DNA of 64,000 nt from Caulobacter sp. BP25 (GTDB taxonomy: Bacteria; Pseudomonadota; Alphaproteobacteria; Caulobacterales; Caulobacteraceae), in assembly GCF_002737755.1 (NCBI RefSeq), contig NZ_PEGH01000019.1:1-64000 (forward strand), read 5' to 3'. Position 1 is the stretch's first letter. Every line of letters starts with the position of its first letter. Made by a program: the position numbers and the translations under genes. Shown piece after piece: positions 48,732 through 57,827 of this stretch. Below the pieces are notes generated by a model, which saw only the letters and a program-made list of their open reading frames with translations, ran no database searches and was not told the origin of the DNA.

Positions 48732-51700
48732 ATGAAGGCGATTTTCCTGGGCTCGGCCTGCGCGCTGATCCTGGCCAATGCGGCCGCCGCCGCCCCGACC
48801 CCGGCTGAGCCCGGCCTGCTGTTCAAGCTTTCGGGTGACAAAGGCCTCGTCGCCGACGTCGCCGCTGGCGACCCCGTCCCCAACTTCGCTGACAAGGTCA
48901 TGCCAATAGATGGCAAGGCCGGCAAGGGCTTCCGCGCCGCCGACGACGGCGTCGTCTCGTGGAACGCGCCCAGCAACATCCTGGCCCAGCGCGGCACGCT
49001 CTCGTTCTTCTGGCGCTCGGGCTATCCGGTCGGCGTCGCGCCCTTCGTGATCTTCCGCGTGGGCTACGCCGACCATTCCAGCTGGGACATGGCGTTCCTG
49101 CGCATCGACTGGAACGGCCACGGGTTCGACGCCTTCGTCACCGACAATGGCCTCTCGCGCACCCGCGTCTCCTTCGAGGTCGACGAGAACCCCGCCCCCG
49201 ACGCTTGGACGCACCTGGCCTTCGCCTGGGACGAGACCACCGGCGTCCAGCTCTATGTCGACGGCAAGCTGGCGGCCAAGAAGGAGGCCAAGGCGGTCTA
49301 TGACGCGGGCCTGGACCAATTCGGCGTCGCCGGCCGCGTGATCGCCCCGCACCAGGTGCAGAGCCGCTACAACTTCACGCGCGGCGGCGATCTGGACGAG
49401 CTGCGGGTCTATGACCGGGCGCTGGACGCCTCGGCCATCGCCGCCCTCGCCCGCAATGAGACGCCAGCCATCGCCGCGCCAGTCGCCGCACTTGGAGACC
49501 CCGCCGTCCACGCCGCCTGGAAGCAGCGCTACGGCTGGAACAAGGACCTGCCGCCGCTGCTGGCGGACGCTCAGACCACGATCCGCAAGGTCGAAATCGC
49601 CGACGCCAAGGACATCAAGCAGTGGATGTGGCGGGCCAATGACGGAATCTCGGAAACCACCTGGCCCGGCGTCTACAACCGCTCGCGCCTGCCCGGCCGC
49701 GACGACTATTTCCCGCTGCCCGACTGGAACGTCTATGTCGACGGCGGCAAGGCCCTGACGCTGACCCTGCCCGACGAGTCTATCAACCGCATCGAGATTC
49801 AGGGCCCAGCCTACGGCGCCCTCACCTGGTCGGCAAAGGCGGGCGACAAGGGCGCCAGTGTCGGAGCCCGCGCCAAGGACCAGCAGCGCACGGTCACCAC
49901 CTTTGCTCAGCCGCTGAAGGGCGGCGTCCTGACCTTCACTAACGTGGCGCAGGAGACCCCGATCCAGGAGATCTGGGCCTACAACGTCTCGGCCGGCGCC
50001 GAGCCGAAGGACGCCTTCAAGATGAGCTACACGGTCCGCGCCGACGTGGCGCCGGACTATCTGAACCTCGCCGATCTCAACGCCTACATCGCCGGTCGCC
50101 ATCCGGCGGGAGAGCGCGCCACCGTCGTGGCCATACCCGAGGGCGCGCCCAACCGGCCGCGTCCTGCCGAGGACCTGACGGCCAAGAGCCTGCCGATCGT
50201 CCACATGCTGATCCCGTCGGGCTTCGGCGACGCGCCGGCGGCCAAGCCGCTGGCCCGTAACTGGGCCTATGGCTGGGAGAACGCCCGCGACGGCTTGGAC
50301 GGCATCGCCATCGACATTCCTTCTCTGCCTGGCGCCGCTGGCGCCACAATCCCTCTGAACATCCAGGTGAAGGACCCGATCTGGCCAGGCCGCAACATGA
50401 TGGACGTCAGCGTTGCGGTGAAGGCGGGCGAGGCCCGCACCGTCTGGCTCGACCTGCGCGACCGTATCCTGACCGCCGACAGCCTGTACCTGACCCTGGC
50501 CGCCGATAGCGCCGACTTTGGCCCCAAGGCCCTGGACGGCGCCAAGATCCGCCTGGTGCTGAATGACCGTGACAAGGCCAAGGTCGAGCACACCCAGGAC
50601 CGCCTGAACCAGGTGAAGGACAACTGGGCCTTCTTGGTCGAGGAGCACACGACCTCCAAGCGCCAGGGCCTCTATCGCCGCCTCTACGCCGACATCACCG
50701 ACCTGCTGCGCGTCGATCCCGACAACCAGATAGGCCGCGAGTACTGGGGCGACATCACCTATGGCAGCCAGGGCTGGCCGGCGTTCGAACAACCCAAGCC
50801 GACCGACGGCGCCCCGCTATGGGCCTTCCGCCAGCTGGAGGACCTCAAGCTGGTCTCCAAATTCGTCAACTGGTGGATCGACGAGCGCCAGGCCGACTTC
50901 GGCGACTTCGGCGGCGGCCTGTCCGACGACACCGACCTTTTGCAACAATGGCCGGGCGTGGCGCTGATGGGCGTCCAGCCGGACAAGATCACCCACTCGC
51001 TGAACCGCCTGACCGACGTCGTCTACAAGAACGGCATGTTCACCGATGGACTCTCGACCATCGCGACGGACGAGCTGCACGCCTACGAAGAGGGCATCAA
51101 CTCGAACGCCGAGGCGATGTACGTCAACTACGGAGACCCGCTGGCCGTCGAGCGCCTGTTCACGACGGTCAAGGCCCTGCCCAAGGTGGTCAGCAAGAAC
51201 CCCGCCGGCCATGTCCACTTCAACACCAACTGGTACAGCGGCAAGGTCTTCTACCGGGAAGGCCCGTGGGAGTGGCAAAAGCCCTACTCGTTCGGCGTCA
51301 CCCACCCCTCGATCCTGATCAGCGACTTCAACGGCGACCCGACCGCCCGTGACACGGTGATCGGCCTGGCCGACGGATACCTGGCCCACGTCACCAACAA
51401 GGACGGCTCGTATCCCAATGAGATCAACTGGCGCACCGACGCCGAGCGCGGCGGCACGGTGCTGCAGGGCTCGGGCGCGGACGGTCCGTTCCAGGTGTTC
51501 TGGGCCGCCTATCGCCTGACCGGCGATCCGAAATACCTGGTCCCCATCCAGTGGCGGATCGGCAAGAACGGCCTGAAGTCCCTGCAGAACGTCAACGAGA
51601 ACGCTCTCACCGAGCTGAAGCTGGGCGAGGCCAACAAGGACGCCCTCGTGAAAGCGGCGGCCAAGGGCGGCGCCTTCGAACGCTACGCCGCCTGGTCGCT

Positions 51701-52511
51701 GACCGGCGACAAGAAGCACCTCGAGGATCTCTACGCCGACGAGATCCAGTGGAACGCCCAACACATGTACATGCACACGGAGGGCCACTGGTGGTCCGAC
51801 CGCGTGGAGCTGCCGTCAGACTACCTGCAACGCACGCGGCTGGGCGGCATCGCCAATAAGCGCGGCCAGATGAACCCCGGCCATACCGTCTCCTGGCGCT
51901 TCGACAACGCCGACGGAACCGACGTGGCGTTGCTGATCAAGGACGCGACCAAGACCAGCTTTAAGGTCATCGCCTACAATACCACCGACAAGCCGGTGAC
52001 GGGCGTGATGACCGGCTGGAACGTCGCGCCGGGTCAGTGGAGCCTTAGCCAAGGCCTCGACGCCAACGGCGACGACGTCATCGACGGCGCGGCCCAGACC
52101 CGCTCGGTCGCCTTCGAGCGCAGCCTGGGCACCCAGGTGGTCCTGCTTCCGCGCCAGACCACGGTCATCGACATGAAGCTGGAGAAGGCCGGCGACGACC
52201 CGGCCAAGCGCGCCGACCTTGGCGTGGGCCGCGGCGACGTCGTCTTGAAGGGCTCGACCGTCACGGCCACGGTCCACAGTCTCGGGGCTCAGGACGCGGC
52301 GGCGGCCAAGCTCGAACTGGTCGACTCGTCGGGCGAGGTGCTGGCCAGCGCCCCGACCCCGGTCCTGAAGGCGCCGCGCGACCTCCTGCCCAAGACGGCT
52401 TCGGTGAAACTGAAGATTCCCGTCGGCGTGAAGGCCCAAGGCCTACGGGTGCGCATCGTGACCACCCAACCCCAGAACACCCGCCTGAACGACGAGGTCG
52501 TGCTCCCATGA
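48732..52511 (+). CDS. Large secreted LamG-domain protein, likely glycan-active, main domain unrecognised
   Basis: 1259 residues with a signal peptide (M-K-A-I-F-L-G-S-A-C-A-L-I-L-A-N, cleavage near A-A-A-A). A LamG/concanavalin A-like domain spans about 25-250 (R-G-T-L-S-F-F-W, W-T-H-L-A-F-A-W-D, L-Y-V-D-G-K-L-A, G-D-L-D-E-L-R-V-Y-D-R-A-L). About residues 270-650 look like beta-rich modules. A large domain (about 690-1120) contains W-W-I-D-E-R-Q-A-D-F-G-D-F-G-G-G-L-S-D-D, H-A-Y-E-E-G-I-N-S-N and H-T-E-G-H-W-W-S-D-R, the look of an alpha/alpha-toroid polysaccharide lyase or hydrolase. I cannot name its family. Beta-sandwich tail from about 1125. Stop overlaps the start of the next gene (ATGA). 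Confidence 0.85.
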   Translation: MKAIFLGSACALILANAAAAAPTPAEPGLLFKLSGDKGLVADVAAGDPVPNFADKVMPIDGKAGKGFRAADDGVVSWNAPSNILAQRGTLSFFWRSGYPVGVAPFVIFRVGYADHSSWDMAFLRIDWNGHGFDAFVTDNGLSRTRVSFEVDENPAPDAWTHLAFAWDETTGVQLYVDGKLAAKKEAKAVYDAGLDQFGVAGRVIAPHQVQSRYNFTRGGDLDELRVYDRALDASAIAALARNETPAIAAPVAALGDPAVHAAWKQRYGWNKDLPPLLADAQTTIRKVEIADAKDIKQWMWRANDGISETTWPGVYNRSRLPGRDDYFPLPDWNVYVDGGKALTLTLPDESINRIEIQGPAYGALTWSAKAGDKGASVGARAKDQQRTVTTFAQPLKGGVLTFTNVAQETPIQEIWAYNVSAGAEPKDAFKMSYTVRADVAPDYLNLADLNAYIAGRHPAGERATVVAIPEGAPNRPRPAEDLTAKSLPIVHMLIPSGFGDAPAAKPLARNWAYGWENARDGLDGIAIDIPSLPGAAGATIPLNIQVKDPIWPGRNMMDVSVAVKAGEARTVWLDLRDRILTADSLYLTLAADSADFGPKALDGAKIRLVLNDRDKAKVEHTQDRLNQVKDNWAFLVEEHTTSKRQGLYRRLYADITDLLRVDPDNQIGREYWGDITYGSQGWPAFEQPKPTDGAPLWAFRQLEDLKLVSKFVNWWIDERQADFGDFGGGLSDDTDLLQQWPGVALMGVQPDKITHSLNRLTDVVYKNGMFTDGLSTIATDELHAYEEGINSNAEAMYVNYGDPLAVERLFTTVKALPKVVSKNPAGHVHFNTNWYSGKVFYREGPWEWQKPYSFGVTHPSILISDFNGDPTARDTVIGLADGYLAHVTNKDGSYPNEINWRTDAERGGTVLQGSGADGPFQVFWAAYRLTGDPKYLVPIQWRIGKNGLKSLQNVNENALTELKLGEANKDALVKAAAKGGAFERYAAWSLTGDKKHLEDLYADEIQWNAQHMYMHTEGHWWSDRVELPSDYLQRTRLGGIANKRGQMNPGHTVSWRFDNADGTDVALLIKDATKTSFKVIAYNTTDKPVTGVMTGWNVAPGQWSLSQGLDANGDDVIDGAAQTRSVAFERSLGTQVVLLPRQTTVIDMKLEKAGDDPAKRADLGVGRGDVVLKGSTVTATVHSLGAQDAAAAKLELVDSSGEVLASAPTPVLKAPRDLLPKTASVKLKIPVGVKAQGLRVRIVTTQPQNTRLNDEVVLP

Positions 52512-53002
52512 AGACGTTTCTCCCCCTGATCGCCGCGGGTCTCTGCCTGGCGAGCGCTCCCGCCCTGGCCCAGACGGCGGCGGCCCCCGCGCCGGCGGCC
52601 AATCCGGCCTACTCCGCCCGCGTGATCACCCTGGCCGAGGCCAAGTCGGTGGTCGCCGCCGCAGAGGCCGAGTCGCGCAAGAACGGCTGGGCGATGGTCA
52701 TCACCATCGTCGAGTCCAACGGCGCCGTCGTGCTCTCCGAAAAGATGGACGGCGCGCAGTACGGCTCAAGCGAGGTGGCGCTGAAGAAAGCCCAGACCGC
52801 CGCCAACTTCCGTCGCCCGACGTCCTATTTCCAGGAGGCGGTGAAGTCGGGCACGCTGAACGCCATCTTTACCGGCGCCATGGCGCTGGAGGGCGGTGAA
52901 CTGCTGCTGGTCGACGGCAAGATCGTCGGCGCCATCGGCGTGTCTGGTGGGTCGGCCGCGCAGGATGGCGTTGTCGCCCGCGCCGCCGCCACGCTTAAGT
53001 AA
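52508..53002 (+). CDS. Secreted HbpS/GlcG-family (DUF336) protein
   Basis: 164 residues with a signal peptide (cleavage near A-L-A-Q-T). Single GlcG/HbpS domain: I-T-L-A-E-A-K-S-V-V-A-A-A-E, I-V-E-S-N-G-A-V-V-L, A-L-K-K-A-Q-T-A, and C-terminal I-G-V-S-G-G-S-A-A-Q-D. HbpS binds haem and GlcG stands beside glycolate genes; the role of this one is unknown. Translationally coupled to the large LamG gene, so a joint job in the periplasm is likely. Confidence 0.85.
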   Translation: MKTFLPLIAAGLCLASAPALAQTAAAPAPAANPAYSARVITLAEAKSVVAAAEAESRKNGWAMVITIVESNGAVVLSEKMDGAQYGSSEVALKKAQTAANFRRPTSYFQEAVKSGTLNAIFTGAMALEGGELLLVDGKIVGAIGVSGGSAAQDGVVARAAATLK

Positions 53003-55192: not shown

Positions 55193-55460
55193 TGCTGACG
55201 GCTAGTTAGCCTGCATAAAGGCGCCCGAGGACTCAGGGTGCCTATAAGCGACTGATTTCATAAAATTTTCATCCAACTTAACCGACGCAACGCAAACCGG
55301 ACTGGCTATGACTGGCCGTAGCCGCCGACAGCAAGTCCGCTCCGGCGTCAACGGATGACCGCCAGCGACTTGCTGCCCCCCAGCTCTCGATATATTCGGC
55401 TGGGGAACGTTATTGATTGACGTAACGACACTCTCCAGCCCGATCCTAGGAAGGCACATC

Positions 55461-56123
55461 ATGAAGATCGCTCTGATCACCGAAAACAGCCAAGCGGCCA
55501 AGAACGAGACGATCCACAGCGCCTTGACCGCCGTGGCTACGCCTCTGGGCCATCAGGTCTTCAACTACGGCATGTACACGCCCGAAGATAAGGCCTCGCT
55601 GACCTACGTCATGAACGGCCTGCTGGCTGGCATCCTGCTGAATTCGAAGGCGGCCGACTTCGTGGTCACCGGCTGCGGCACCGGCATGGGCGCCATGCTG
55701 GCCTGCAATGCGATGCCGGGCGTCTTCTGCGGCCTGGTCATCGACCCGACCGACGCCTTCCTGTTCGGCCAGATCAACGACGGCAACGCCATCTCGATGC
55801 CCTACGCCAAGGGCTTCGGCTGGGCGGCCGAGCTGAACCTGCAGGACGTCTATCGCAAGCTGTTCGATGGCGAGCGCGGCCTGGGCTATCCCAAGGAACG
55901 CGCCGAGATCATGGCCAAGAACCGCGGCATCCTGAAGACCGTGAAGGCCGCGACCTGCAAGGACATGCTGAGCGCCCTGAAGGCGGTCGACCAGGATCTC
56001 GTGAAGGCCGCCATCGCTGGCGAACGCTTCCAGGAGTACTTCTTCGCCAACGCCCAGGACGAAGCCATTCGCGACTACGTCCAGGGCCTTCTGAGCGGCG
56101 CCCGTCAGCTCGAGAACGCGTAA
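55461..56123 (+). CDS. RpiB/LacA/LacB-family sugar-phosphate isomerase
   Basis: 220 residues. Seen: K-I-A-L-I-T-E-N-S, G-C-G-T-G-M-G-A-M-L-A-C-N (active-site Cys and anion loop of RpiB), N-D-G-N-A-I-S-M-P-Y, and helical C-terminus longer than RpiB proper (about 150 residues). Isomerises a phosphorylated or free sugar; the substrate cannot be read. Start fixed by TAGGAAGG. The 268 bases upstream hold a long inverted repeat (CAGCAAGTC...GACTTGCTG near 55328-55370). Confidence 0.85.
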   Translation: MKIALITENSQAAKNETIHSALTAVATPLGHQVFNYGMYTPEDKASLTYVMNGLLAGILLNSKAADFVVTGCGTGMGAMLACNAMPGVFCGLVIDPTDAFLFGQINDGNAISMPYAKGFGWAAELNLQDVYRKLFDGERGLGYPKERAEIMAKNRGILKTVKAATCKDMLSALKAVDQDLVKAAIAGERFQEYFFANAQDEAIRDYVQGLLSGARQLENA

Positions 56124-56431: not shown

Positions 56432-57046
56432 ATGACCCCCGCCCCGAACGCCTTCGAAACGCCGCGCCACAACCGCCGCGAAGACGCCGACGGCCCGCCG
56501 ATCTTAATCGTTCCAGGCCTCTACAATTCAGGCCCAGATCACTGGCAGACTCATTGGGAGCGCGAACTGCCCAACGCCGAACGCGTGGAGCAGCAGGACT
56601 GGGAGCGCCCTCTGCTGGGTGACTGGACGATCAGCCTGGCGGAAGCCGTGCGCCAGCGGCCCGGCGCGATCCTAGTGGCGCATAGCCTAGGCTGCGCCCT
56701 CGTCGCCCACTTCGCGCAAGTGACGGGCGGACGCGGCGTGGGCGGGGCGATGATGGTGGCCCCGGCCGACGTCAATCGCGAAGGTCCGGCCGGCCGCCTG
56801 CTGGTCGGCTTCTCGCCCATCCCGCGCCAACGCCTGCCCTTCCCCAGCCTGGTCGTGGCCAGCCGCAACGACCCCTATGTCGAGATCGACCGCGCCGAGG
56901 CGTTCGCCCGCAGCTGGGGCTCAGCGTTCGTCGACCTGGGCCGCGCGGGACACATTAACGTCGACTCCGGCCATGGCCCCTGGCTGAAGGGCCGCGCCCT
57001 GCTCAAGAGTCTGGTCGACCGGGTCGAGGCGACCAAGCGATTCTAA
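56432..57046 (+). CDS. RBBP9/YdeN-type alpha/beta-hydrolase
   Basis: 204 residues. I-V-P-G-L-Y-N-S-G-P-D-H-W-Q-T-H-W near the start and nucleophile V-A-H-S-L-G-C (G-x-S-x-G with A at the first position, as in this family); acid Asp in S-R-N-D-P-Y and His in R-A-G-H-I-N. These are small serine hydrolases of unclear substrate. The 3' end overlaps the convergent LamG gene by four bases. Confidence 0.88.
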   Translation: MTPAPNAFETPRHNRREDADGPPILIVPGLYNSGPDHWQTHWERELPNAERVEQQDWERPLLGDWTISLAEAVRQRPGAILVAHSLGCALVAHFAQVTGGRGVGGAMMVAPADVNREGPAGRLLVGFSPIPRQRLPFPSLVVASRNDPYVEIDRAEAFARSWGSAFVDLGRAGHINVDSGHGPWLKGRALLKSLVDRVEATKRF

Positions 57047-57789
57047 TCGCCGCTGGTGCGCAGCAGCGCCTCTGGCCCCAAGGCGCGGGGCGTGAAGCGA
57101 GCCTCGCGCACCGCGCCCTTGAAGTAGTCGACCCTGTTCATCCGCGCGCCAACCGATGAGCGCCCTTGCCCTTGCGGCTTGAACGCCATTTCGACCTCGC
57201 CCTGCAGCTGGCCGTTGACGAAGGCGCGGTAGGTCTTGCCGTCATAGCTCTGGGCGACCCAGTACCAGCGCCCGACCGGGAAGGTCTTGTCCAAGAAAAG
57301 CAGCGTCTGCTTGTAGCCCGGCCCCGTGGCGAAGGCGTCCAGGCTCCAGGCCTCGCCGGTCACGCGAATCTCGAACAGCATACGGGTGACCGAGGGGGGC
57401 GCGCCGGGCGTCGGATCTTCCTCGTTCAGGTGAAACCAGCGCTGCGCGAAGACGCCGCCATCGGGCCGGAATAGAGCCTCGAAGGTGAACTGCGCCATGC
57501 CGGCCAGCGGGTGACGCTCGATCACCAGTCGGTCGTCGACGCCATCGAACTGCACCGCTTTGCCATAGGGCGTGTCGATCAGGCGCGGATCGCCCTCGAC
57601 CATCGTCGCCGCGCCACCGATTCTGGAAAGCCGATCGAACGTCCAGCGCGTCTGGTCGGGCGCGTCGCGAGTCGGGCGGCGCCCCATGGCCGAAGCGGAC
57701 AGGCCCGCCGACAGCGCGCCAAGACCGCCAAGAACGACTCGCCGCCCGAGCGGCCGCGAGAGCTCTCCCTGGCCTTTGAATCCGTTCAT
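57043..57789 (-). CDS. Tat-exported LamG-domain protein
   Basis: 248 residues. Tat-like signal (L-S-R-P-L-G-R-R-V-V-L-G-G-L-G) and a single LamG/concanavalin A-like domain (about 50-245: V-Q-F-D-G-V-D-D-R-L-V-I, F-T-F-E-A-L-F-R-P, R-W-Y-W-V-A-Q-S-Y-D-G, A-F-V-N-G-Q-L-Q-G). No catalytic residues are evident, so a glycan-binding role is inferred. GAGGAGGAGG precedes ATG 57789. The promoter carries the same LacI-type operator core as the large LamG gene. Confidence 0.8.
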   Translation of the reverse strand: MNGFKGQGELSRPLGRRVVLGGLGALSAGLSASAMGRRPTRDAPDQTRWTFDRLSRIGGAATMVEGDPRLIDTPYGKAVQFDGVDDRLVIERHPLAGMAQFTFEALFRPDGGVFAQRWFHLNEEDPTPGAPPSVTRMLFEIRVTGEAWSLDAFATGPGYKQTLLFLDKTFPVGRWYWVAQSYDGKTYRAFVNGQLQGEVEMAFKPQGQGRSSVGARMNRVDYFKGAVREARFTPRALGPEALLRTSGD

Positions 57790-57813
57790 GACGCCTCCTC
57801 CTCCGGCATTTAT

Positions 57814-57827
57814 TGACACCGGTATCA
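57814..57827. promoter_or_regulatory. LacI-type operator upstream of the Tat-exported LamG gene
   Basis: TGACACCGGTATCA, near-perfect palindrome (TGA-x-ACCGGT-x-TCA), 25-38 bases before the start codon. Matches the LacI-family operator form and shares its first ten bases with the site at 48681. Confidence 0.6.

Follow-up and report, generated by a model that had tools for sequence, protein, structure and literature searches.

Within the window, a stretch of 64,000 nucleotides of Caulobacter sp. BP25 DNA, a gene at positions 48732..52511 (+), its ATG preceded by GGAGGAG, encodes a giant secreted protein of 1259 amino acids. A Sec-type leader, judged by eye, forms its N-terminus and is followed by a LamG domain, by beta-domains and, in predicted models, by an (alpha/alpha)6 barrel and a C-terminal beta-sandwich. 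The LamG (concanavalin A-like) domain occupies residues 85-237 (48984..49442, +; PF13385, E = 6.2e-14), boundaries that come from a scan of the first 249 residues alone. On the whole protein the same model (LamG_3, PF13385) scores 48 bits (E = 1.9e-12) against a curated cut-off of 27.6, and a sub-threshold pentaxin row of Pfam lies over this part. The LamG region is filled in 91 of 91 alignment rows, which were preselected as full length and include repeats. An earlier note on this DNA had described an exported 1259-residue reading frame with an N-terminal LamG domain, and both are confirmed, the export by the leader as seen by eye and the domain by the PF13385 match. The three motifs it listed for the large domain are likewise present: WWIDERQ (residues 714-720), GGGLSDD (727-733) and HTEGHWW (1015-1021). 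As the note had also stated, the stop codon of the giant overlaps the start of a gene for a secreted DUF336 protein; the overlap is ATGA, four bases. This HbpS/GlcG-like partner (52508..53002, +; 164 amino acids, leader judged by eye) matches the HbpS-like model PF03928 with E = 4.7e-31 and 107.9 bits (cut-off 25), and EfgA and HbpS-type proteins are among its PDB relatives.

Residues 250-1259 of the giant match no Pfam model, no NCBIfam model and no PDB sequence, so that the note's large domain without a named family is borne out against Pfam and NCBIfam. The NCBIfam scan of the entire protein returned no match, and PDB sequence searches with the single giant sequence and with two profiles gave chance-level rows or none. 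When the core of 29 family members was compared with Pfam, a single chance-level row appeared, in one member. The GH76 Pfam model gave no row in scans of the giant and the 29 members, PF07470 (GH88/GH105) gave none at E 0.1 in any of the 29, and hhalign found no link between the giant and nine GH88/105 sequences (probability 5%). Within a limited library and set of search terms, no description of the family was found in the literature.

Full-length relatives with 44-92% identity exist in many genera, a spread that puts the giant far beyond chance. A scan of the genome collection with six short peptide patterns identified at least 75 loci in Caulobacter, Nitrospirillum, Sphingomonas, Xanthomonas, Stenotrophomonas, Massilia and other genera; three plasmids carry relatives. 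In the relatives sample, 26 of 61 genomes carry a giant relative, each of them within the window's genus; relatives also occur in 4 of 299 phylum-wide genomes, the window's own among them, and in 19 of 119 genomes taken to be Xanthomonadaceae. The window's genome (20 contigs, with Caulobacter as its relatives) has a single copy. The loci examined contain 90 full-length giant reading frames, repeats and the window copy counted. The giant of L087, L088, L090 and L095 is broken into at least two frames, possibly through decay or sequencing error, and copies elsewhere are intact. The stretch of about 1000 residues that bears no Pfam or NCBIfam name is thus shared across Alpha-, Beta- and Gammaproteobacteria, in most cases next to pectinases or galacturonate genes.

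AlphaFold2 models of residues 250-1259 (pLDDT 85.1, pTM 0.80) and 609-1153 (pLDDT 88.9, pTM 0.89) both contain an (alpha/alpha)6 barrel followed by beta-sandwich strands. VIA-align of the predicted model places the barrel at about residues 694-1054 (50811..51893, +), and strands in the models mark the C-terminal beta-sandwich region at about residues 1053-1257 (51888..52502, +). The best VIA-align match of model 609-1153 is GH76 6y8f (Z 16.5, 281 aligned residues, 4.0 A), and the matches include GH88 1vd5 (Z 15.2, 302 aligned, 4.0 A), GH47 5ne5 (Z 14.2, 336 aligned, 4.2 A), GH105 4xuv (Z 13.5, 274 aligned, 4.3 A) and epimerases with Z near 13, a range in which the Z of helical models may reflect mere arrangement (up to about 13). 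The nearest solved folds of the predicted barrel are thus glycosidases of GH76, GH88, GH47 and GH105, which supports the note's suggestion of an alpha/alpha carbohydrate enzyme; the fold search does not separate hydrolase, lyase and epimerase. The note had proposed structure prediction and a comparison with polysaccharide lyases: the former yielded the alpha/alpha barrel, whereas a lyase class was not favoured by the fold search. The top Foldseek rows of the long model (complement C3 and others) were discarded because their rmsd exceeded 40 A, and a search of a viral structure library gave no meaningful match.

Conservation was read from an alignment of 91 full-length rows, repeats included (the window gene twice), of which 76 are distinct over the core; truncated and split copies were excluded. 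R719, D732, D733, D735, H783, Y785, E786, N790, H827, H1019, D1023 and R1024 are kept in 76 of 76 distinct rows and E787 in 74, and the ETTWPGVYNRSR loop is invariant in all 76 at most of the positions tested. By invariance and barrel position, E786/E787 (51087-51092, +) and D732/D733 (50925-50930, +) are candidate catalytic acids. Entry titles name catalytic acids in 6y8f (D136/D137), 6zbm (D125), 9r4p (D164), 9r4o (D163) and 2fv0 (D88). Transferred to the giant by the offset from the first aligned residue alone, gaps ignored, these acids fall at domain residues 176-184, and the invariant E786 is domain residue 178. By such offsets, E786-E787 lies near the place of the GH76 Asp-Asp pair and D732-D733 lies elsewhere, while near the place of the GH88/105 Asp pair (range offsets only) the giant has an invariant Glu, not Asp. 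A near-invariant stretch with ETTWPGVYNRSRLPGRDDYFPLPDWNVYV, residues 301-340 (49632..49751, +), is modelled with low confidence (pLDDT below 50 in parts); E308, W311, Y315, R323, D325, D331 and W332 are kept in 76 of 76 distinct rows and N316 in 75. The stretch is possibly a substrate or active-site loop.

A fixed pairing of giant and DUF336 protein, as the earlier note had proposed, does not hold across the family. In a FastTree tree of 96 rows, which includes L116 and L117 (Caulobacter, without DUF336) and leaves out re-fetched copies of rows already present as well as loci whose flanks reach just 1.5 kb, all 20 DUF336-linked rows fall into one Caulobacter-type clade of 27 rows (support 100); the two genes are adjacent in 0 of the 69 rows outside it, and a fixed unit of the two is therefore rejected. 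Seven clade rows are without an adjacent DUF336 gene, and within the clade the tree does not distinguish gain from loss. Among the 22 genomes of the relatives sample with a closer copy (at least 70%), DUF336 adjoins the giant in 15; one of the other seven, G023, is interrupted by the end of a contig. Outside the clade, other genes overlap the giant stop, DUF885 in nine loci and a small LamG gene in one. The DUF885 overlap, again of four bases, is found in sphingomonad-type loci (L052, L057, L058, L066, L071, L076, L081, L085 and L090) and mirrors the DUF336 overlap in the window. The DUF336 partner is thus a local part of the giant's story rather than its general feature.

Two further genes of the window were considered. 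A small secreted LamG protein of 258 amino acids (57043..57819, -) has homologues that adjoin the giant in Massilia, at a distance of 133 bp, and in Novosphingobium, where the gene overlaps the giant stop; in some Caulobacter it lies 3.6-4.5 kb away. It is found at the same place in the window's closest relative, L149 (14544-15353, -), and the family is also present at L083 (3379-4116, -), L096 (18042-18725, +) and L153 (11407-12156, -). The small protein is possibly, on slight grounds, an accessory to the giant. The gene at 55413-56123 (+) encodes a homologue of PDB 4u8e (gbs1892; E = 9e-84), which we take to be DhuI, an isomerase of unsaturated-uronate catabolism. It was rejected as a conserved part of the locus, being absent at the equivalent place of L149 and not found in the other giant loci examined. 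According to PMC12838403, DhuI and KduI are isofunctional, both serving as isomerases in the breakdown of unsaturated uronates.

The neighbours of giant relatives were identified by clustering, by Pfam and NCBIfam scans of representatives and by a phmmer scan of the loci, and their labels cover the fetched stretch, the length of which varies between rows. They include genes for pectinesterase (PME), PL10, GH28, UxaC, KduI, KDG kinase and a pectin-acetylesterase-like protein. At least one of nine pectin/galacturonate reference genes is found above 80 bits in 55 of the 69 rows outside the window's clade, and 50 of 69 remain when eight genes and scores above 150 bits are required instead; none of the nine is present in the fetched stretch of the other 14. 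A TonB receptor lies within the fetched stretch of 56 of the 69. The spread of these rows is uneven, 36 of them being one Xanthomonadaceae clade. In 17 of 25 Xanthomonas loci, pectinesterase, PL10 and the giant follow one another on one strand, and in the other eight the giant is accompanied by a KDG-kinase-like gene and a TonB receptor. Loci of Sphingomonas and Novosphingobium contain varying sets of UxaC, KduI, KduD, KDG kinase, altronate/galactarate dehydratase and a PaeX-like esterase; several of the nine sphingomonad-type loci with DUF885 also contain UxaC, KduI, KduD, altronate/galactarate dehydratase and esterases. The reading frame used as the PL10 reference starts too early and overlaps the PME frame, and for this reason small additional 'PL10' pieces at some loci were left uncounted; PL10 itself was confirmed independently by family search. 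Two GH88/105 queries found no further match in the giant loci (phmmer).

Second giant copies in Caulobacter, 50-55% identical, have surroundings of their own. In four of ten fetched regions (L105, L106, L109 and L111) the second copy occurs with GH28, a mandelate-racemase-type enzyme and a TonB receptor; these copies also adjoin a lactonase-like beta-propeller protein. The five strongest GH28 matches in 41 Caulobacter genomes score 153-162 bits (the next scores 88), and each of the five has a second giant copy or piece, 50-57% identical, at a distance of about 4 kb. A uronic-acid polymer as substrate, which the earlier note had raised, is strongly suggested by the neighbours of the relatives and not by the DUF336 partner.

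Linkage was counted in the 119 Xanthomonadaceae genomes. The giant is present in 19 and PL10 in 13, and both occur in seven versus 2.1 expected (hypergeometric p = 8e-4); giant and PME occur together in eight genomes versus 2.6 expected (p = 6e-4). Since the genomes are related, these p values are descriptive. PL10 is directly upstream of the giant on the same strand in all seven genomes with both, with 0.9-1.1 kb from the PL10 end to the giant core match, and PME precedes PL10 in five of the seven. Of the eight genomes with giant and PME, five have PME at 1.9-2.1 kb upstream of the giant and three have it far away. Twelve of the 19 giant genomes are without PL10 and 11 without a PME match. 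GH88/105 was found in four of the 119 genomes (three over cut-off), including two giant genomes, one of them a weak match, and in none of the seven with giant and PL10; PL22 over cut-off was found in none of the 119, with four sub-threshold rows. As this search found no GH88/GH105 and no over-cut-off PL22 in these seven genomes, the giant may fill that step.

The window's own copy stands apart from these loci. Pectin reference genes are found in 0 of the 27 rows of its clade (in the fetched stretch, several with short flanks). For PL10 and GH28 the window's genome yields one weak match each (93 and 24 bits, respectively), both over cut-off; its KduI-family matches score 118 and 91 bits versus 359-375 for canonical KduI, which is found in 10 of 41 Caulobacter genomes. 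The PL10-like match, at G000:C4:203998-204558 (+), is partial and recurs in many Caulobacter genomes. Because the clade has no nearby pectin genes and the genome matches are weak, a role in pectin breakdown is strongly indicated for the family and less so for the window's copy, which probably keeps the family chemistry; its substrate is less certain.

A predicted enzyme-like fold and relatives mostly among pectin genes make the giant a promising candidate for a pectin enzyme not yet described, and we take the family to be a pectin-associated glycan enzyme, probably an exo-type glycosidase. Stated in full, the giant would belong to a secreted carbohydrate-active family, undescribed relative to Pfam and NCBIfam, that acts as an exo-glycosidase on oligogalacturonides in pectin breakdown, a tentative reading to which we give a probability of about 0.45. 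Most family members would then have a role in the breakdown of pectin (homogalacturonan), alongside PME and PL10 where these are present, and would trim the released oligogalacturonides, most likely as exo-acting glycosidases that hydrolyse rather than eliminate. The catalytic acids would lie near E786/E787 and D732/D733, at the barrel mouth, and the products would pass through the neighbouring TonB-dependent receptor into KDG or galacturonate catabolism. The window's copy belongs to a Caulobacter-type branch outside the pectin loci, mostly with a DUF336 partner. A bolder version, which we hold to be doubtful, makes the giant a new CAZyme family that releases terminal (unsaturated) galacturonate in exo fashion outside the cytoplasm. 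It would take the place of GH105/PL22 in the PL10-type loci of Xanthomonadaceae, and likewise in the galacturonate loci of sphingomonads, and the Caulobacter branch, along with the DUF336 protein, would have been retuned to a different uronic polymer. If the exo step is true, it explains how pectin digestion is finished in bacteria with PME and PL10 but without detectable GH105 or PL22, and it provides a defined new enzyme to assay.

The main rival to an exo-glycosidase is a polysaccharide lyase that would cleave uronic-acid chains by beta-elimination, using the invariant Tyr, His and Arg residues (Y785, H783, R719, H1019). Several PL families combine an alpha/alpha toroid with a beta-sandwich, and in both models of the giant the toroid is followed directly by a beta-sandwich; Y785, H783, R719, N790 and H1019 are present in all 76 distinct rows, the gene context concerns uronates, and the glycosaminoglycan lyase 8khw appears at Foldseek rank 50. 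However, no lyase is named among the 50 VIA-align matches listed per model, which are mostly glycosidases and sugar epimerases or isomerases, along with one transaldolase and a handful of proteins without assignment, and we regard a lyase as unlikely.

A glycosidase could also act on side chains or decorations of pectin, for example on arabinose or xylose branches, instead of the backbone. GH43 genes beside several giant copies, esterase neighbours and Foldseek matches to GH127 beta-L-arabinofuranosidases over long stretches (rmsd 13-17 A) point in this direction, but the tightest linkage is to the backbone enzymes PME and PL10, and the GH127 mechanism needs a cysteine, whereas the invariant lists contain none; such a specificity appears distinctly unlikely. 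Finally, the LamG domain, the TonB receptor in 56 of the 69 outside rows and the small LamG companion in some loci would suit a non-enzymatic, secreted glycan-binding protein that captures oligomers and passes them to the receptor. Invariant acids, arginines and aromatics on an enzyme-type barrel argue against mere capture, which we consider quite improbable.

Parts of this system have counterparts in the literature. XCC0120 (TonB receptor), XCC0121 (PME) and XCC0122 (pectate lyase) form one locus of Xcc; polygalacturonate induces the receptor gene, and this locus was unique to Xcc among the Xanthomonas strains compared, according to the sections available of PMC1790865. In 17 of 25 Xanthomonas loci the giant is preceded by genes of these kinds; the sections do not mention the giant. 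Extracts of PMC4686621 report XCC0121/XCC0122 homologues in two non-pathogenic X. arboricola strains that have pectate lyase and PME activity on plates, and the giant is not mentioned in the corresponding extracts of PMC5132194, PMC3551730 and PMC7142613. The DUF336 partner is a plain member of the HbpS/GlcG family, but its adjacency to a LamG giant is found in one Caulobacter-type clade only. The GH76 alpha-1,6-mannanases are the best fold match to the giant, yet they share 6-10% identity with it and their mannan substrate is at odds with its gene surroundings. Unlike GH88/GH105, the giant has no Pfam match to that family, is secreted and, at 1259 amino acids, carries LamG and beta-domains; like them, it has an (alpha/alpha)6 barrel in its predicted model, and its proposed step is similarly downstream of pectate lyase.
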